DNA of 64,000 bases from Natrinema longum (GTDB lineage: Archaea; Halobacteriota; Halobacteria; Halobacteriales; Natrialbaceae), in contig NZ_CP071463.1 of assembly GCF_017352095.1 (NCBI RefSeq), forward strand, positions 3,162,001 to 3,226,000. Reading direction: 5' to 3'. Shown piece after piece: positions 3,641-12,301 of the stretch. A model generated the notes under the pieces. The model did no database searches and had not been told where the DNA came from. It saw nothing but the letters and a program-made list of their open reading frames with translations. Both the position numbers and the translations under genes were made by a program. The stretch's first letter is position 1. Every line of letters begins with the position of its first letter.

Positions 3641-5482
3641 ATGTCACAATCCGAGTCAGCGGCCCAGTCGATGGCGGACCACGAGGAACGGATCAAGCGC
3701 CACTTGAGCGCTTCGAGAGAGATCGCGAAGAACCTGGAGTTCGACGACGAGCTCCACTTCGAGATGGGGCTCCCGAGTCCGGGTCGTCGGACGTTCCTGA
3801 AGACGAGCGGCATCGTGGCGGCGTCGGCAGCACTCGCGGGCTGTGCCAGTAACGAAGACGACGATTCGCCGGGGCCGACGGACGACGACGAGGATGGGGA
3901 CTCGTCGAACGAAGGGACATCGGACGCACAGCAAAGCGAGACCGTTCAGTTGTCGGCACATCAATACGAGTTCCAACCCCAGGAGATCCGAGTGGCTCCG
4001 AACACGGAACTCACCATCGAGTTCACGGAGTCGACCTTCGAGCAGAACTCGGACTTCAAATTCCACACGTTCTATCTCGAGGAGCCATACGACGTCGGGC
4101 CGGTCAATCTGCCCGAGAACACGGACGACGAGGTGATCGATTCGGTCACGTTCGTCACCGACGAAGAGGGGACCTTCGACTTCGAGTGTAACATTTACTG
4201 TGGGGACGGACACGCCCAGATGAACGGCCAACTGTACGTCGTTCCCGAGGGCGAGTCCGTCGACAAGGTCGACTTCACCGACATGGAGACGCTGAAAGAG
4301 CGTCACGAGGTCCTCAAAGAAGAGAGCGAACTGGCCCAGGAGCCCCAACACGACCTCGATCTGCGGGACATCATGGTCGTCACCGAGCGCAACAACGCCT
4401 CGGTCGCGATGATCGATACGGTCAACGACGAGCTCATGGAGCGGGTCGAGAACGTGGGGAAGGCGATCCACGTTCACGACTTCCATCCCGAACTGCCCGA
4501 GCAGACACGCGAGGGTGCGTACGTGTATACGCAATCGCGCCAGGGGGAGATGTACAAGATCGATCTGTTCGACTTCGAACGGGTCGCGGTCGCCGACGCC
4601 GGGACGGACGCCCGGGACATCGCCGTCTCCAGAGACGGCAACTACGTGATCGGCGGGTTCTACAACCCGAACCACCTCGTCATCTGCGACGCAGACACGA
4701 TGGAGCCGATCAAGCGGATCCCGACCCACACCGTCAACCCCGACGGCGAGAGCCTCGGGAGCCGGGTCTGCTCGCTGTACGACGTTCCCCACGAAGGGCT
4801 GTTCCTCGCGGGACTCAAGGAGGGCGGCGAAGTGTGGCTCATCGACTACACGCAGGAGGAGTTCCCGGTCGTGGCGACCATCGAATGCGGTCGAACCCTC
4901 CACGACGGGTTCTTCACGGACGACGGTCGCTACTTCATGATCGCCTCGCAGACGGACAACCAGATGGACATCATCGACACGCAAGAACGGAGCCACGTCG
5001 CCGCGATTCCGATGGACGGGGTGCCACACCCCGGTCCCGGCGCGCTCTACCCCGACGAGGACCTCGCCTTTACCACCCACGCGGGCGCGCCGAGCGTCGG
5101 CGTCTGGAACACGGAGACCTGGGAGGCCGAGCAGATGATCGACGTCAGGGGCTCGGGACTGTTCATCCGGAAACACGAGAACAGCGACTACGTCTGGGCC
5201 GACGTCATCCTCACCGACAGCGAGGACGACGCCTACGTCTACACGATCGATCCCGAGACCCTCGAGGTCGACCAGGAGATCGACTGCAGCCAGTGGGGTG
5301 CCGCCGCCGCGATCCACCCCGAGTTCAGCCGCGACGGCGAGAAAGTGTACATCAGCGTCTGGATGGGCGAGAACGAATCGATCCTCGTGTTCGATCCGAA
5401 CACGGGCGAACTGCTGACCCAGATCGAGGATCTGCTGGCACCGACCGGGAAGTTCCTCGGCGTCCGCGCTGAGGGGCACTGA
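3641..5482 (+). CDS. CuA cupredoxin-cytochrome d1 fusion (NirS-like), Tat lipoprotein
   Basis: A 613-residue exported protein. After a 47-residue cytoplasmic extension come a Tat motif (R49-R50-T-F-L-K) and a lipobox Cys68, so it should be anchored outside the membrane. Residues about 85-205 form a cupredoxin with a complete CuA site: H142 (FKFHTF) and C183-x3-C187-x3-H191-x2-M194. Residues about 246-613 match the eight-bladed d1 propeller of cytochrome cd1 nitrite reductase: proximal His candidate H277 (KAIHVH), active-site His in LHDG (H421) and PHPG (H463), then LFIRKHENSDY, ISVWMGENES and APTGKF. No heme c motif CxxCH is present; CuA appears to replace the cytochrome c domain. A d1-heme nitrite (NO-forming) reductase or related oxidoreductase is inferred. 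It is the first gene of an operon with NirF-like, NirJ-like and HemA genes. Confidence 0.85.
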   Translation: MSQSESAAQSMADHEERIKRHLSASREIAKNLEFDDELHFEMGLPSPGRRTFLKTSGIVAASAALAGCASNEDDDSPGPTDDDEDGDSSNEGTSDAQQSETVQLSAHQYEFQPQEIRVAPNTELTIEFTESTFEQNSDFKFHTFYLEEPYDVGPVNLPENTDDEVIDSVTFVTDEEGTFDFECNIYCGDGHAQMNGQLYVVPEGESVDKVDFTDMETLKERHEVLKEESELAQEPQHDLDLRDIMVVTERNNASVAMIDTVNDELMERVENVGKAIHVHDFHPELPEQTREGAYVYTQSRQGEMYKIDLFDFERVAVADAGTDARDIAVSRDGNYVIGGFYNPNHLVICDADTMEPIKRIPTHTVNPDGESLGSRVCSLYDVPHEGLFLAGLKEGGEVWLIDYTQEEFPVVATIECGRTLHDGFFTDDGRYFMIASQTDNQMDIIDTQERSHVAAIPMDGVPHPGPGALYPDEDLAFTTHAGAPSVGVWNTETWEAEQMIDVRGSGLFIRKHENSDYVWADVILTDSEDDAYVYTIDPETLEVDQEIDCSQWGAAAAIHPEFSRDGEKVYISVWMGENESILVFDPNTGELLTQIEDLLAPTGKFLGVRAEGH

Positions 5483-5508: not shown

Positions 5509-6654
5509 ATGTCCGACACCCACACCGAAACGACGGCAACGACCCGGCACGCACGGGGGCCGCTCGCGCTCGTCAAGCACCTCCGCGGAGCGGGGTTTAC
5601 CGTGATCGATGCGGATAGCCACGAGCCGATCGGCCGAGTCGGCGAGGGACGCCAGCCTCACGCGCTCGCAGCCCACCCGGGCGGACGCTGGGCGTACGTC
5701 CCCTACATGGCGTCGAACGCGCTCGAGGTCGTCGATCTCCGGACGCTCTCCGTCGCGGACCGCGTCGAGACGGTCGGCACTGCGCCGGTGGGAGCGGTCC
5801 TGACCCGGACCGGACGGTACCTGTTCGTCAGCACCTACGGAGGGCTTCCCGGGGACGATCGGCCCGGACTCGCCGTCTTCCGTACGGACGGCGAACAGGT
5901 CGAACTGGTCGCGGAACTCCCGACGGGGAAGGCCGCCGGGCTGACGGTCGACGTCCGGAACGACGTCTGGGTCGCGCTGAAAGACGCCGACGAGGTCGTC
6001 CGCATCTCGGGGACGCCGCCGTTCGCGGAGCGCGACCGGTTCGCGGTCGCCGGTGGTCCCCAGGACCTGGCGTACGACCCGGCGTACGGACTGCTGGGCG
6101 TGAACGACGTCGACGCTGGAAGCGTCACGTTCGTGGACGCACTCGAGGCATCGGTGCTCGGCTCGGTTCCGGTTCCGAACCCGCGAGGGGGGACGGCCGT
6201 TCCGGCCAGCGATCGGTGGTTCGCCGGGAACACCGACGGAGACGGCGTCACGGTAGTCGACGTGAACGCGGTTCGACGCGACGACACCGATTCGACGGCC
6301 GTCGAACACGTCCCGCTGGGAACGGCCACCGCCTTTACCGACGCGACCCCCGACGGGGCGCTGGTCGCCGTCGACGCGTACGACGACGACCGCGTCACGT
6401 TCCTCGAGCCGGCGACCCTCGAGATCGTCGCGCGGGTCGAAACTGGCCCGACGCCCCGTCATCCGCAGTTCAGCGCGGACGGGCGGGTCTGTTACGTTCC
6501 GAGCGTCGACGGCGACGCGGTGACCGTCATCGATGTCGACGCGATCCGCTCGACGGGTGATTCCCCCCACGATCCGATCGTGACGAAGATAGATTTGCCC
6601 GACGGGGCCGGGCCTGCGGGCTGTTTCCGTACCGACAGAGGGAGATATCCATGA
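5509..6654 (+). CDS. NirF-like beta-propeller protein 1
   Basis: A 381-residue YVTN/NirF-type propeller with repeated blades such as GRWAYVPYMASNALEVVDL and GRYLFVSTYGG. It has no signal peptide, so it should be cytoplasmic. H51 in GEGRQPHALAAHPG sits where NirS and NirF carry their blade-1 His. NirF acts late in heme d1 synthesis in denitrifying bacteria (dihydro-heme d1 dehydrogenase). Here the role is inferred from fold, this His and position between the d1 protein and the NirJ-like gene. The gene starts 26 nt after the CuA-d1 stop and overlaps the next gene by ATGA. A heme chaperone role is an alternative. Confidence 0.7.
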   Translation: MSDTHTETTATTRHARGPLALVKHLRGAGFTVIDADSHEPIGRVGEGRQPHALAAHPGGRWAYVPYMASNALEVVDLRTLSVADRVETVGTAPVGAVLTRTGRYLFVSTYGGLPGDDRPGLAVFRTDGEQVELVAELPTGKAAGLTVDVRNDVWVALKDADEVVRISGTPPFAERDRFAVAGGPQDLAYDPAYGLLGVNDVDAGSVTFVDALEASVLGSVPVPNPRGGTAVPASDRWFAGNTDGDGVTVVDVNAVRRDDTDSTAVEHVPLGTATAFTDATPDGALVAVDAYDDDRVTFLEPATLEIVARVETGPTPRHPQFSADGRVCYVPSVDGDAVTVIDVDAIRSTGDSPHDPIVTKIDLPDGAGPAGCFRTDRGRYP

Positions 6655-7793
6655 CTTTCGATACCGATAGCGCAGCCGTCGCGACCGAAGGATCGTCCCG
6701 CACGCCGACGATCGTCAAGAACGCCGCGAGCAGCCACTTCAGCGCGGTCGCCCTCTCCGAGGGTGAGGTCCTCGCAGCGGTCGGCGAGGGACGGTACCCG
6801 CACACGGCGCTGTTCCATCCGGACGCACCGGTCGCGTACCTGCTGTACATCGCCAGCGCCCATCTCGAAGTCCTCGACCTCGAGCGCCTGGAGACCGTCC
6901 AGCGCGTCGACCGGCTCGGAACGATGCCCGTCGGGAGCGCGCTGGGCCCCGGCGGCGACTCGCTGTTCGTCGGGACTGCGGTCGACCTGCCGACGGCGTC
7001 CGATCCGGGCGTTATCGCGTTCGATATCGACGAGGACGGCCGACTCGAGCCTGCGGGCACGCGGCCGCTCTCGCGGAGTTCCGGCATGCGGATCGGCCCG
7101 GACGACCGCCTCTACGTGGGCCAGAAGATCGAGGACGAAGTCGCCGTGCTCGGCGCGGACCCCCGGCTCGAGGTCGAGGCGCGGATCCCCGTCGGCGCGG
7201 AGCCACACGACCTGTACGTACTCGACGACGACGGGCTCCTGGTCGTCAACCACGCCGGCGGCTCGTCGGCCTCCTTCGTCGACGCGGCCGCCGAGCGGGT
7301 CCGCTGTACCGCCGAGACGGGGACGAATCCGCACGGTTTCGCCGTCGCGGACGGGCCCGAGTATCGGTACGGGCTGTTCCCGGCCCGCGAGGACGACCGC
7401 GTCGCCGTCGTCGATCTCGAGGCGGCCGCGGCGGGCGAGGCGTCGTCGACCGAAACGCTGCTCGACGTCGAAACGACGACCGGTTTCGCCGGCGTGAGGC
7501 CGGACGGCCGCTACGCCATCGTCGACTCCTACGACGAGCAGTTCGTGACGATCCTGAACCTGACCGACCTGTCCGTCGCCGGTCGCGTCGAGATCGGCGG
7601 GGAACCGCTCCACGTCGTCTTCGGCCCCGACGGCGAGGAGTGTTACGTCGGGAACATGGAGCGGACCGACCTCGCGGTGCTCGACACGCGACCGCTTGCC
7701 GACGATCGTCCGGCGGACGTCGCAGTCGGCCGCCGAATCGACGGGTTCGGGGAGAAACCGAGCGGCATCTTCCGCCCGGAGGTGGACCAATGA
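6651..7793 (+). CDS. NirF-like beta-propeller protein 2
   Basis: A 380-residue paralog of the preceding propeller, also without a signal peptide. Its His is at the same residue number, H51, in GEGRYPHTALFHP. Blades such as VAYLLYIASAHLEVLDL, PHDLYVLDDDGLLVVNHAGG and EPLHVVFGPDGEECYVGN are readable. ATGA overlaps at both ends show translational coupling with its neighbours. Two adjacent copies suggest a heterodimer or a split of NirF-type and NirN-type tasks. Inferred to act in heme d1 maturation or handover. Confidence 0.7.
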   Translation: MTFDTDSAAVATEGSSRTPTIVKNAASSHFSAVALSEGEVLAAVGEGRYPHTALFHPDAPVAYLLYIASAHLEVLDLERLETVQRVDRLGTMPVGSALGPGGDSLFVGTAVDLPTASDPGVIAFDIDEDGRLEPAGTRPLSRSSGMRIGPDDRLYVGQKIEDEVAVLGADPRLEVEARIPVGAEPHDLYVLDDDGLLVVNHAGGSSASFVDAAAERVRCTAETGTNPHGFAVADGPEYRYGLFPAREDDRVAVVDLEAAAAGEASSTETLLDVETTTGFAGVRPDGRYAIVDSYDEQFVTILNLTDLSVAGRVEIGGEPLHVVFGPDGEECYVGNMERTDLAVLDTRPLADDRPADVAVGRRIDGFGEKPSGIFRPEVDQ

Positions 7794-9010
7794 TCGATCT
7801 CACACGACTCATCAGAGGACTCGACAACCGACCGGAACAGATCCGTTACGAGAAGCGCCGCGCGAGCGACGCCCTCGTCCCGCTGGTCGTCTGGAATACG
7901 ACCCCCGCGTGCAACCTGCGGTGCAAGCACTGCTACTTCGGGGCCTGCGACGAGCGCGACAGCGAGGAGCTGTCGACCGCCGAGGCCAAGGCCTTCATCG
8001 ACTCGCTGGCCGCGGTGAACGTGCCGGTACTCGTCTTTAGCGGCGGGGAACCGTTCTTCCGCGACGACATCGCCGAACTCACCCGGTACGCCTCGGAACG
8101 GGGATTGCGTCCGATCGCCTCGAGCAACGGGACCTTCCTCACCGAGGAACGCGCCCGAGACGTGGCCGACGCGGGGATGCAGTACGTCGGCGTCTCCCTG
8201 GACGGCGTCGGGGCGACGAACGACGAGTTCCGCGGCGTCGACGGGGCCTTCGAGCGAGCCCGCAACGGACTCCGCAACGCCCGTGACGCCGGGATGGGGA
8301 CGGGGATCCGGTGTACGATGACCCAGGGAACCGTCGACGACGTCCCCGCGGTGATCGATCTCGCCGTCGAGGAGGGGATCGACCGCGTCAACCTCTTTCA
8401 CCTCATCTACTCCGGACGCGGCGGCGACATCACCGACGCCGACCTATCGTTCGAGCGCACGCGTGAAATCGTGGACTACCTCTACGAGCGAACCAAAACG
8501 CTCGCCGAGACCCACCCCGACATGCAGATCCTGACTGCCGGCAACTACGCCGACGCGGTCTACCTCTACCACCGGATTCGAGAGGACATGCCGGCCCACG
8601 CCGAACGGGCTCGGGAACTCCTGTTCGACGACGGCCCCGGTCGAGTGGTCAAGAACGGCGACGCCGGCCCGAAGGTCGTCAACGTCGACCACCGCGGCGA
8701 CGTCCACCCGAGCATGTTCCTCTCGCAGTACACGCTCGGGAACGTCCGCGAACAGTGCCTCGACGAGATCCTCGCCGAAAGCGATCTCTGGTCCGAGCTG
8801 GCCGAGCCGACCGACCACCTGAACGGGAAATGCGGCCGCTGTCCGTGGAAGGAGGTCTGTGGCGGCAACTCCCGTGCCCGCGCCGCCGCGGTCTACGACG
8901 ACCTCTGGGCCGAGGATCCGCGGTGTTATCTCACCGACGCCGAGTACAGGACGGCGGAACTCCCGCCCGAACACACGCCTCGGGTCGACGCGCCCGTAGT
9001 ACTTGAGTAG
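7790..9010 (+). CDS. nirJ: Radical SAM heme d1 synthesis protein, NirJ-like
   Basis: A 406-residue radical SAM enzyme. C41-x3-C45-x2-C48 (CNLRCKHC) binds the SAM cluster, and FSGGEPF is the SAM-binding GGE motif. The C-terminal auxiliary cluster set is C348-x2-C351-x5-C357-x21-C379, with the sequence VCGGNSRARA. In my recollection CGGN/CNGNTRVRA is typical of NirJ, while AhbC and AhbD have CGGCRARA. Further NirJ-like landmarks are YSGRG, AGNYADA and LGNVRE with a VHP segment. NirJ removes two propionates from didecarboxysiroheme. AhbC of the alternative heme b pathway is the main competitor; the d1 operon context favours NirJ. The gene overlaps its upstream neighbour (ATGA) and is 4 nt from hemA. 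Confidence 0.8.
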   Translation: MIDLTRLIRGLDNRPEQIRYEKRRASDALVPLVVWNTTPACNLRCKHCYFGACDERDSEELSTAEAKAFIDSLAAVNVPVLVFSGGEPFFRDDIAELTRYASERGLRPIASSNGTFLTEERARDVADAGMQYVGVSLDGVGATNDEFRGVDGAFERARNGLRNARDAGMGTGIRCTMTQGTVDDVPAVIDLAVEEGIDRVNLFHLIYSGRGGDITDADLSFERTREIVDYLYERTKTLAETHPDMQILTAGNYADAVYLYHRIREDMPAHAERARELLFDDGPGRVVKNGDAGPKVVNVDHRGDVHPSMFLSQYTLGNVREQCLDEILAESDLWSELAEPTDHLNGKCGRCPWKEVCGGNSRARAAAVYDDLWAEDPRCYLTDAEYRTAELPPEHTPRVDAPVVLE

Positions 9011-9014
9011 ACAG

Positions 9015-10313
9015 ATGCACGCACCCGACTTGGCACCCACCGACGCGAGAACCGACCTCGACTCGGCGACGGTCGCGACGATGCCAAAGAGCGTCCGCCG
9101 GCTCGCGTGTTGCCGGGTCAGTTGCGCCACGCACTCGACGGACGAGTTGGGAGCGATCCGGCCGGCCGAACCGCTCGAGGTTGCCCGTCGGATCGCAGGA
9201 CACGACCGCGTCACTGAGGCGGTCGTCCTCTCGACGTGCAACCGGGTGGAGGCGTACTGCAGCACTCGGACGCCGGCGGATCGGGACGAGGGGCTTCGCG
9301 TCGCACGCGAGGCGCTCGGCGATCCCGACGGCGCGCGGACGGAGACGGGGCTCGACGTCGTCGACCACCTGTTCCGCGTCGCCTGCGGACTCGAGAGCAC
9401 CGTCGTCGGCGAGGCTCACGTCCTCGGACAGCTCCGTCGAACGTTCGAAACGGCACTCGAGGCGGGGCTCGCCGGCGGCGTGGTGACGCGGACGGCGGAC
9501 GCAGCCGTCTCGGTGGGACGGCGCTGCCGCGACGAGACCGACATCAACGAGGGGACGGTCAGCTACGGGAGTGCGACCTGTGAGCGACTCGAGGCTCGCG
9601 GCCGAGTGCCGGACCGCCTCGTCGTCGTCGGCGCGGGTGAGATGGCGACCTCGGTCGCGAAGGCAGCCACGCATCGATGGGAGAGTCGCGTCGACGTCGT
9701 CAACCGCTCGAGCGCGCCGGAGATAGTCACGGCGGACGGGAAATACTGGCCGCTCGAGTCGCTGGGAGCGGCGATAGCCGACGCGGACGCCGTCGTGACG
9801 GCGACGGGCGCGGCGGACCCAGTGGTGACCGCCGAAACGATGCGGGAACTCGAACGCGAGACGGTCGTCGTCGACCTGGCGAACCCGCCGGACGTCGCCG
9901 AGGCGGTTCGACACTCCGCCGTTCCGGTCATGGATCTCGACGAAATCCAGGCCGGGATCGAGGCGGCCGTCTCGGGTCGGCGGGACGCGATCCCGGCAGT
10001 CGAAGCTGCGGTGACCGACGCGGTCGCGTCGTTCGTCGATCGGGAACGCGAGAACCGCGCCGAGGACACGCTCCGGGGCCTCCACCGCACTGCGGCGACG
10101 ATTCGTGAGCGCGAACTCGAGCAGGCGCGGACCCGCCTCGAGAACGGGGACGACCCCGAGGCCGTCTTGGACGACTTCGCCAGCGCGCTGACCGGGTCGC
10201 TCCTCGGGACGCCGACCGAACGCCTTCGGACGGCTGCACGCGACGGCGACGATGCGATCATCGAGGCCACACACCGACTCTTCGATCTCGACGCCGACCT
10301 CGAGGAGTCGTGA
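9015..10313 (+). CDS. hemA: Glutamyl-tRNA reductase
   Basis: A 432-residue glutamyl-tRNA reductase, the NADPH enzyme making glutamate-1-semialdehyde for tetrapyrroles. The nucleophile Cys75 is in LSTCNRVEAY, the HVLGQLRRTFE and GSATCERLE segments follow, the Rossmann motif is VVVGAGEMA, and a C-terminal dimerisation domain ends the protein. The N-terminus (ACCRVSCATHSTDELGA) looks unlike the usual haloarchaeal HemA start. This, with its place as last gene of the heme d1 operon, suggests a second, pathway-dedicated copy. ATG 9015 is preferred to the in-frame TTG at 9003. Confidence 0.9.
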   Translation: MHAPDLAPTDARTDLDSATVATMPKSVRRLACCRVSCATHSTDELGAIRPAEPLEVARRIAGHDRVTEAVVLSTCNRVEAYCSTRTPADRDEGLRVAREALGDPDGARTETGLDVVDHLFRVACGLESTVVGEAHVLGQLRRTFETALEAGLAGGVVTRTADAAVSVGRRCRDETDINEGTVSYGSATCERLEARGRVPDRLVVVGAGEMATSVAKAATHRWESRVDVVNRSSAPEIVTADGKYWPLESLGAAIADADAVVTATGAADPVVTAETMRELERETVVVDLANPPDVAEAVRHSAVPVMDLDEIQAGIEAAVSGRRDAIPAVEAAVTDAVASFVDRERENRAEDTLRGLHRTAATIRERELEQARTRLENGDDPEAVLDDFASALTGSLLGTPTERLRTAARDGDDAIIEATHRLFDLDADLEES

Positions 10314-10511: not shown

Positions 10512-11465
10512 ATGGATACCCACGACGGTCGCGGTCGGAGTCCCTCGAGGAGCCGTCGGGAGTTACTCGCTGGTGCGGGCGGCCTCACCGCGGGACTCGT
10601 CGGGACTGCGGGTTGTCTCGGCAGCACCGACGGGGTTCGGGTGCTCGCTGCGGGCAGCCTTGCTATCGCCCTCGAAGAGCGGATCGGCCCGGCGTTCGAA
10701 GCCGAGTCCGACGTCCACTACGAGGGCGAATATCACGGGACCAACGCGGTGTTGCGGCTGGTCGAGGACGGAACGAAGTATCCGGACGTCGTGATCGGAG
10801 CCGACATCGAACTCCTGCGGGATCGACTCTACCCCGACCACGCCGACTGGGACGCCTCGTTCGCGGCCAACGAGGTCGTGATCGCCTACGAACCGGAGAC
10901 CGAGCTGGGGGCGTGTCTCGAGACCGATCGCCCGTGGTACGAGTGTTTCGGCGACGCCGACGAGGGGGCGATCGCGATCAGTGATCCGGATCTCGACCCG
11001 CTTGGCTATCGGGCGCTCCTCCTCTTCGAACTCGCCGAACGGGAACACGGGCTCGACGGGTTTCGCGACGCGATGGCCGACACAGTCGCTTACGTTCCCG
11101 ACGAGACGCAACTGCTCGCCGATGTCGAGAGCGGGAATCGCGCCTGTGCGGTCGCCTACAGCAATATGGCGGCCGAGCGTGAGGTCGCCGTCCGCCGGCT
11201 CTCCGACGCGTACAACTTCGGTGCGCCCGCCGCCGCCGACCGGTACGCGCAGGCGAGTTACACGACCGCTGATGGCCACACTGTCGAGGGATCGCCCGTC
11301 GTCTACAACGCGACGGTCCGTACCGACGCGGACGATCCCGTGGCAGGACGGGAGTTCGTCGCGTTCCTCCTCGAGAACGACGACCTGCTCACCGAGTCCG
11401 GACTGCGCGTCGACGACTCGTTGCCGCGATTTCACGGCGATCCGCCGGAGGCGATCAAGCCGTGA
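10512..11465 (+). CDS. wtpA: Tungstate/molybdate-type ABC binding lipoprotein
   Basis: A 317-residue exported substrate-binding protein with an N-terminal twin Arg (SRRELLAGAGG) and lipobox AGC, so Tat-exported and lipid-anchored. The mature part opens VRVLAAGSLAIALEERIGPAFE, the pattern of the WtpA/ModA family (AGSL at the oxyanion site). It continues with GTNAVLRLVEDGTKYPDVVIGAD, DPDLDPLGYRALL and the late AVAYSNMAAE segment. Tungstate versus molybdate cannot be told by reading. GTGA overlap with the permease gene shows one operon. Molybdopterin enzymes such as nitrate reductase would need this substrate, which fits the neighbouring d1 operon. Confidence 0.8.
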   Translation: MDTHDGRGRSPSRSRRELLAGAGGLTAGLVGTAGCLGSTDGVRVLAAGSLAIALEERIGPAFEAESDVHYEGEYHGTNAVLRLVEDGTKYPDVVIGADIELLRDRLYPDHADWDASFAANEVVIAYEPETELGACLETDRPWYECFGDADEGAIAISDPDLDPLGYRALLLFELAEREHGLDGFRDAMADTVAYVPDETQLLADVESGNRACAVAYSNMAAEREVAVRRLSDAYNFGAPAAADRYAQASYTTADGHTVEGSPVVYNATVRTDADDPVAGREFVAFLLENDDLLTESGLRVDDSLPRFHGDPPEAIKP

Positions 11466-12301
11466 GCAGCTCCAGTCCTGAGGGCCCTGATGACCATCGT
11501 CCCCGTTTTACTGCTAGCTTCGAGTGGCTCCCGACGGGGCTGGCCGTCCCGGCGCTACTCGGCGCAGTATTGCTCGCGTACTTCGTCGTCCCCGTCGCCG
11601 TCTTTCTGCTTCGAATGCGGGCGGTCGATCTCGTCGCCGGGCTCACGGATCCGACGATTCGGGACGCGATCAGAACCTCGCTGGTGACGGCCCCGGTTTC
11701 GACGACCATCGCGACCGTCTTCGGCGTCCCGCTGGCGTACGTCCTCTCGCGGGGCTCGTTTCGCGGCAAGCGGCTGGTCGAAGCGCTCGTCTTGCTCCCG
11801 CTCGTCGTCCCGCCGATCGTCGGCGGCGTGATGTTGCTGACCATCGTCGGTCGATACACGCCGATCGGCGCGGCCGCCGTGGCGCTCGGGATGCCGTTGA
11901 CGGGAAGCCACGCCGGCGTCGTCCTCGCCCAGACGTTCGTCGCCGCGCCGTTTCTCGTCGTTACCGCCCGCGCGGGCTTCGACGGCGTCGATCCCCGCCT
12001 CGAGGAAGCCGCGCGGACGATGGGGTACGGGCCACTGCGAACGATACGACTGGTGTCGCTGCCGCTCGCGCGCAACGCCATCGCCGCCGGGATCGTACTG
12101 ACGTTCGTCCGGGCGATCGGCGAGTTCGGCGCGACGATGATGGTCGCGTATTCACCGCGGACCATGCCCGTTCAGATCCGCGTCTCGTTTATCGCTCGTG
12201 GGATCGACGCCATCGTCCCCATCGCGCTCGCCTTGCTCGCGATCGCCGTGATCGTCGTCGTCGCCGTCCAGTTGCTGGTCGGAACGCCCAAGCAACACTG
12301 A
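11462..12301 (+). CDS. wtpB: Tungstate/molybdate-type ABC permease
   Basis: A 279-residue BPD-type permease with about six membrane segments. The coupling-helix region EEAARTMGYGPLRTIRLVSLPLARNAI and the GEFGATMMVA segment are characteristic of ModB/WtpB/CysW permeases. GTG start overlaps the stop of the binding protein (GTGA). No ATPase gene follows; an ATPase encoded elsewhere is needed. The first 25 residues are a polar cytoplasmic tail. Confidence 0.85.
   Translation: MSSSSPEGPDDHRPRFTASFEWLPTGLAVPALLGAVLLAYFVVPVAVFLLRMRAVDLVAGLTDPTIRDAIRTSLVTAPVSTTIATVFGVPLAYVLSRGSFRGKRLVEALVLLPLVVPPIVGGVMLLTIVGRYTPIGAAAVALGMPLTGSHAGVVLAQTFVAAPFLVVTARAGFDGVDPRLEEAARTMGYGPLRTIRLVSLPLARNAIAAGIVLTFVRAIGEFGATMMVAYSPRTMPVQIRVSFIARGIDAIVPIALALLAIAVIVVVAVQLLVGTPKQH

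Follow-up and report, generated by a model that had tools for sequence, protein, structure and literature searches.

Heme d1 branches from the siroheme-based heme route at didecarboxysiroheme, and the question raised by this locus is whether a haloarchaeon could complete this cofactor in its cytoplasm with a pair of soluble proteins. In bacteria, the keto groups of heme d1 are introduced by periplasmic NirF together with the cytochrome NirC, an assignment made only in 2026 that does not explain the passage of the intermediate through the membrane (PMC13168839), and the acrylate is formed by NirN (PMC7242693). An earlier note on the DNA analyzed here (the window, a 64,000-nucleotide piece of the 3.59 Mb chromosome of Natrinema longum) proposed that two adjacent NirF-like paralogs complete heme d1 inside the cell, and that the cofactor is inserted into an enzyme that is then exported, already folded, by the Tat system.

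The two genes, designated F1 (5509–6654, plus strand, 381 residues, ATG start) and F2 (6651–7793, plus strand, 380 residues, ATG start), were found as claimed. They are joined on the same strand by a 4-bp ATGA overlap and are translationally coupled, and the end of F2 overlaps in the same fashion with the next gene, which codes for a NirJ/AhbC-like radical SAM-SPASM enzyme (J; 7790–9010, plus strand). Along their entire length the two proteins share 33% identity, and their families are sister clades in the tree; thus, the pair arose by duplication. Each is composed of a propeller only, with 2–4 Cys and no heme c domain. The GEGRxPH segment with His at residue 51 was likewise present in both proteins, as GEGRQPH in F1 (His51 codon at 5659–5661, plus strand) and GEGRYPH in F2 (6801–6803, plus strand), and this His is invariant in both families (12/12 F1 and 11/11 F2 sequences).

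No N-terminal hydrophobic stretch or signal peptide was detected when the first 70 residues of the 23 F1 and F2 sequences were scanned by the Kyte-Doolittle scale, in agreement with what the earlier note had reported for the two window proteins. The best 15-residue means in these families (0.7–1.4) come from propeller strands. A hydrophobic stretch at residues 1–19 (mean 1.7–2.8) is present in four of five bacterial NirF references, and the fifth, from Roseibium, has none in its annotated frame. All five bacterial reference clusters contain one NirF and one NirN, as had been expected. At the level of sequence, a cytoplasmic location of F1 and F2 is well supported, as is the logic of the gene cassette described below.

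Structural models, which the earlier note had put forward as a check on both propellers, gave the d1 family as the best matches. The AlphaFold models of F1 (pLDDT 88.7) and F2 (pLDDT 90.2) have eight four-stranded blades by strand count, not the seven of YncE/YVTN proteins, and for both of them the first 21 rows of the structural comparison were NirS, NirN and NirF (Z 35–40 over 337–349 residues). The match to NirF (6tv2) had a Z of 36.0 over 340 residues for F1 and 35.1 over 337 residues for F2. Unrelated eight-bladed propellers ranked behind (Z up to 35.1 for F1 and 32.8 for F2); in the case of F1, NirF leads the next designed propeller by less than 1 Z unit and its rank is therefore a tie, the margin of NirS being larger. 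TM scores were 0.75–0.81 to NirN, NirF and NirS versus 0.53–0.63 to the seven-bladed YncE, 1l0q and hydrazine synthase beta, with YncE covering about 280 of the 381 residues of F1 (TM 0.55). Profile alignment with NirF was colinear, in one register and full length (E values of 4e-14 and 8e-12), and the generic haloarchaeal YVTN family outscored NirF in pairwise profile comparisons (1e-17 to 1e-18), over fewer columns. With the Cytochrom_D1 profile (PF02239, gathering cut-off 25.5), F1 scored above the cut-off (38.0) and F2 below it (18.6), some F2 orthologs exceeding it with neighboring hits. Two generic profiles, PF21783 and TIGR03866, also score well on F1 and F2.

The likeness to NirF does not extend to orthology. 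In an unrooted tree, which has long branches and samples few generic propeller families, NirF clusters with NirN, NirS, the upstream CuA-d1 enzyme (see below) and D1b, and F1 and F2 are placed separately, between this d1 clade and generic propellers. AU tests rejected a forced clade of NirF with F1 and F2 (p 0.01), of F1 and F2 with NirN (p 0.00025), and of F1 and F2 with the generic haloarchaeal YVTN family alone (p 0.004). The claim that the propellers are NirF thus had to be abandoned, also in view of Arg226 of F1 in a position where NirF, NirN and NirS have His, and F1 and F2 are ruled out as true orthologs of either NirF or NirN. A placement with generic YncE propellers unrelated to NirF, one of the outcomes by which the note would have been refuted, was not seen in this tree, as F1 and F2 are not nested inside the generic propellers sampled. 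The term NirF-like therefore stands for fold, pocket and context and not for orthology, because the AU tests reject the NirF clade and the profile scores of the generic family exceed those of NirF. Clade III lactonase-type NosZ, hydrazine synthase beta and PQQ-linked propellers were also considered as identities of F1 and F2 and were discarded, all being far under the curated cut-offs.

F1 and F2 share with P. aeruginosa NirF (6TV2/6TV9) the single-domain eight-bladed propeller, His in the H51 and H318/H321 columns, a PSGIF-type C-terminus (in F2) and a gene position beside a d1 enzyme and a NirJ-like gene. However, the bacterial protein resides in the periplasm or is lipid-anchored and has the cytochrome NirC as a partner, whereas F1 and F2 are predicted to be cytoplasmic, are paired and fall outside the NirF clade, and the His of the second pocket column is replaced in F1 by Arg226. 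With NirN (dihydro-heme d1 dehydrogenase, 6RTD/6RTE) they have in common the d1-type propeller, the H228 and H321 columns (in F2) and, probably, a late step in the pathway, but F1 and F2 lack both the signal peptide and the N-terminal heme c domain of NirN. Generic YVTN/YncE propellers share the blade repeats and the GxxPH motif in the same place; they differ in having seven blades, in lacking the second and third pocket His of the F1/F2 set, and in being unlinked to d1 genes.

Pocket columns were taken from the family sequence alignment, in which generic haloarchaeal YVTN propellers are represented by six rows. The H51 column has His in all d1-family groups, but also in 6/6 of these generic propellers, and His51, the residue stressed in the earlier note, was accordingly rejected as the sole support for a d1-related function. 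At the position of F2 His186, which is a distal His in NirS, F2, NirS and CuA-d1 all have His, NirF has Tyr, NirN has Asp and F1 has Gln (Q185). The F2 His228 column has His in F2 and every d1-family group (MPHLEGW in NirF) and Arg226 in F1, and that of F2 His321 has His in NirF (LHMEF), NirN, CuA-d1, F2 and F1 (H318); neither is ever His in the generic set. Each of these pocket states is invariant within F1 (12/12) and within F2 (11/11). It appears from the alignment that F1 and F2 have a common d1-like pocket which differs systematically inside, and these differences suggest a division of labor between the two proteins.

The upstream gene (3641–5482, plus strand) codes for a Tat lipoprotein with a CuA-type cupredoxin domain and a cytochrome d1 propeller (CuA-d1). 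It matches PF02239 with an E value of 9.5e-76 and NirS and NirN entries in PDB with values of 1e-37 to 1e-40, and it keeps all three His of the NirS heme d1 pocket, the proximal and the two distal ones, as the invariant H277, H421 and H463. A twin-arginine motif (RRTFLK, with RR at residue 49) is followed by a lipobox (LAGC) with its Cys (3785–3844, plus strand); the RR motif, which belongs to the Tat signal previously noticed on the enzyme, was found in 12/12 CuA-d1 proteins. The CuA ligand set (H142, C183, C187, H191 and M194, C-x3-C-x3-H-x2-M; 4064–4222, plus strand) was assigned by alignment, where the pattern is invariant in nine relatives, and by weak matches of this part to CoxB, NosZ and cupredoxin domains. 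A cytochrome c domain is absent from CuA-d1, which has the CuA-type cupredoxin instead. The protein thus resembles cytochrome cd1 NirS in its d1 domain with the NirS histidines and differs from it in the cupredoxin, in the Tat lipoprotein signal and in having no cytochrome c domain. It probably acts as a nitrite reductase. A halophile "cytochrome d protein", a NirS-like outgroup, was noted in 2024 in a paper whose main text describes only the missing cytochrome c domain (PMC10999283), and CuA-d1 evidently corresponds to this halophile clade. That main text mentions neither the CuA domain nor the paired propellers, and no published account of paired propellers or of a CuA-d1 fusion was found in the open-access literature.

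Of 292 haloarchaeal genomes, 12 have F1 and F2 next to each other; these come from no fewer than five genera and three families, and the pairing is therefore not accidental. The CuA-d1 protein is present, adjacent to the pair, in exactly the same 12 of 292 genomes. The CuA-d1 gene (cuD1), F1, F2 and J form the only block common to all 12 when the flanks of distant carriers differ; this conserved four-gene block amid differing flanks thus behaves as a transferable cassette. A glutamyl-tRNA reductase (HemA; 9015–10313, plus strand; TIGR01035, 2.1e-71), whose other copy in the host is at 1430845, accompanies the cassette in 11 of the 12 carriers. J has an intact CNLRCKHC motif and, by paralog comparisons, is a second such enzyme besides the AhbC of the host; with the TIGR04347, NirJ1, AhbC and NirJ models it scored 337–375 bits, below every cut-off. 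Carriers are patchy within Natrinema, and a scan of named genomes gave matches only in Natrinema, Natronomonas and Halorubrum. Beyond haloarchaea, a phylum sample yielded only partial generic matches, and plasmid searches only short generic or distant ones. NirK is also present in 11 of the 12 carriers; thus, the d1 enzyme adds to the copper nitrite reductase, and a role as its replacement is ruled out. In one carrier (L043, 8553–9700), F2 is broken into two frames (304 and 87 residues), with F1, the enzyme and J intact. Directly downstream of the cassette, the window contains a tungstate/molybdate-type ABC transporter (binding protein and permease, 10512–12301), which is not conserved with the cassette in distant carriers.

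Haloarchaeal heme is made via siroheme and 12,18-didecarboxysiroheme (PMC3403918, PMC8305020). The host genome encodes two fused siroheme decarboxylases, AhbC- and AhbD-type enzymes and the second HemA, and with this Ahb route present, only the finishing genes for heme d1 are missing. The extra siroheme decarboxylases were rejected as a part of the cassette, as two fused copies are general in Natrinema with or without it and belong to heme synthesis. The AhbC-type enzyme of the host (L100, 3833–4999, minus strand) is a member of TIGR04347; although this family is named "pseudo-SAM", the protein has an intact CxxxCxxC motif. No NirC-like or NirN gene was found in the conserved cassette, nor any evident electron acceptor such as a c-type cytochrome. 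Because the cassette is without NirC or NirN, and F1 and F2 are without a signal peptide, the simplest reading is that heme d1 is completed in the cytoplasm and the folded enzyme is then exported by Tat.

We therefore favor, with a probability of about 0.6, a model in which F1 and F2 are duplicated, cytoplasmic, soluble eight-bladed propellers that complete heme d1 for the CuA-d1 enzyme. The siroheme-based pathway of the host would supply 12,18-didecarboxysiroheme, the NirJ-like enzyme of the cassette would take off two propionates, F1 and F2 would bind the resulting compound and introduce both keto groups, perhaps along with the double bond of the acrylate, and the holo CuA-d1 enzyme would be exported folded by Tat. 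Heme d1 binding by F1 and F2, the sharing of steps between them, the chemistry of each and an order of insertion followed by export are what we infer within this scheme. It is favored because the pair and CuA-d1 co-occur perfectly (in the same 12 of 292 genomes), the fold and the pocket His are of the d1 type, and signal peptides are absent. Several observations point against it, namely the generic YVTN profile scores exceeding those of NirF, the position of F1 and F2 outside the NirF/NirN/NirS clade, Arg226, and the score of F2 under the PF02239 cut-off. We also count against it the presence of NirK in 11 of 12 hosts, for which the d1 enzyme is thus not the only nitrite reductase. In addition, the redox step assigned to F1 and F2 has no known partner because the cassette has no evident electron acceptor. 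Of the proposal in the earlier note, cytoplasmic completion followed by Tat export is kept, with the d1-type fold, pocket His beyond His51, the lack of signal peptides and the linkage to a Tat-exported d1 enzyme and a NirJ-like enzyme in its favor; the notion that the pair is NirF proper is not (AU p 0.01; Arg226 in F1).

The missing electron acceptor would be easier to accommodate if F1 and F2 were not enzymes but carriers or insertion chaperones, which load heme d1 or a late precursor into the CuA-d1 apoprotein prior to Tat export; the ring would then be finished by oxidation, either spontaneously or through an unlinked activity. Transient binding of both NirF and NirN to NirS in P. aeruginosa (PMC3694632) is consistent with such a role, and the NirS-like four-His set in F2 could hold the cofactor. 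However, the bacterial keto groups require an enzyme (NirF with NirC, PMC13168839) and the conserved cassette offers no other candidate; we regard a pure carrier function as unlikely. More improbable still is that F1 and F2 belong to the generic YVTN/YncE-type propellers, serve some unrelated purpose, such as scaffolding or the sensing of copper or redox state, and are in the operon by chance. The good scores from PF21783 and TIGR03866 would agree with this, as would the common occurrence of GxxPH in generic propellers, whereas the eight blades, the structural matches to the d1 family, the pocket His that generic propellers lack, the invariant linkage to the d1 enzyme and the NirJ-like gene, and the rejected clade with the generic haloarchaeal YVTN family alone (p 0.004) all argue against it.

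If F1 and F2 do complete heme d1, one of them might replace NirF and the other NirN. F1 (H51, Q185, R226 and H318) would then form the keto groups and F2 (four His: H51, H186, H228 and H321) would carry out propionate dehydrogenation, or the reverse. Two steps are left for two propellers, and the within-family invariant differences at H186/Q185 and H228/R226 are in line with such a split, but NirN depends on a c heme of its own, both propellers lack a domain for one, and a clade of F1, F2 and NirN was rejected. We offer this assignment only tentatively. It is similarly conceivable, though somewhat doubtful, that haloarchaea make heme d1 by a route that is complete within the cytoplasm and free of c-type cytochromes, in which F1 and F2 split the keto-forming and dehydrogenation steps, CuA-d1 is loaded and then exported folded by Tat, and a four- or five-gene mobile cassette builds on the siroheme-based pathway of the host. 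In any case, the NirF-like step is apparently cytoplasmic and without a cytochrome; if so, the mechanistic need for NirC would become testable, haloarchaea would make heme d1, in a class for which a 2021 survey found only NirK (PMC8400030), and a CuA center could stand in for heme c in a d1 enzyme. The paired propellers and CuA-d1 would represent a variant of the heme d1 system, the halophile d1 protein itself having already been noted in 2024.

Several other d1-related genes were observed. A second, unlinked d1-domain protein of about 380–430 residues is encoded in 7 of the 12 carriers (L093, 5122–6420, minus strand; also L094, L095 and L096). It keeps the d1 pocket histidines, has no Tat signal or cupredoxin, and is apparently cytoplasmic. 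On plasmid CP031304.1 of Natrinema thermotolerans A29 (L063, 8188–10139), this second d1 protein is broken over two frames and is not listed as a gene. A bacterial NirS encoded on an Aliiroseovarius plasmid (L064, 11536–13212) shares 39% identity with the haloarchaeal d1 domain, versus about 30% for canonical NirS, and has NapC/NirT and a copper-binding protein as neighbors.

Divergent heme-copper oxidoreductase subunits I and II (COX1/COX2 type) are encoded near the cassette in two carriers (L117, 11397–13684; L043, 1630–5044). SCO1 is also encoded near the cassette in L043, and NirK is nearby in the genome of L117. The oxidoreductase is possibly a nitric oxide reductase, and the neighborhood of the cassette in these two loci fits a denitrification island.
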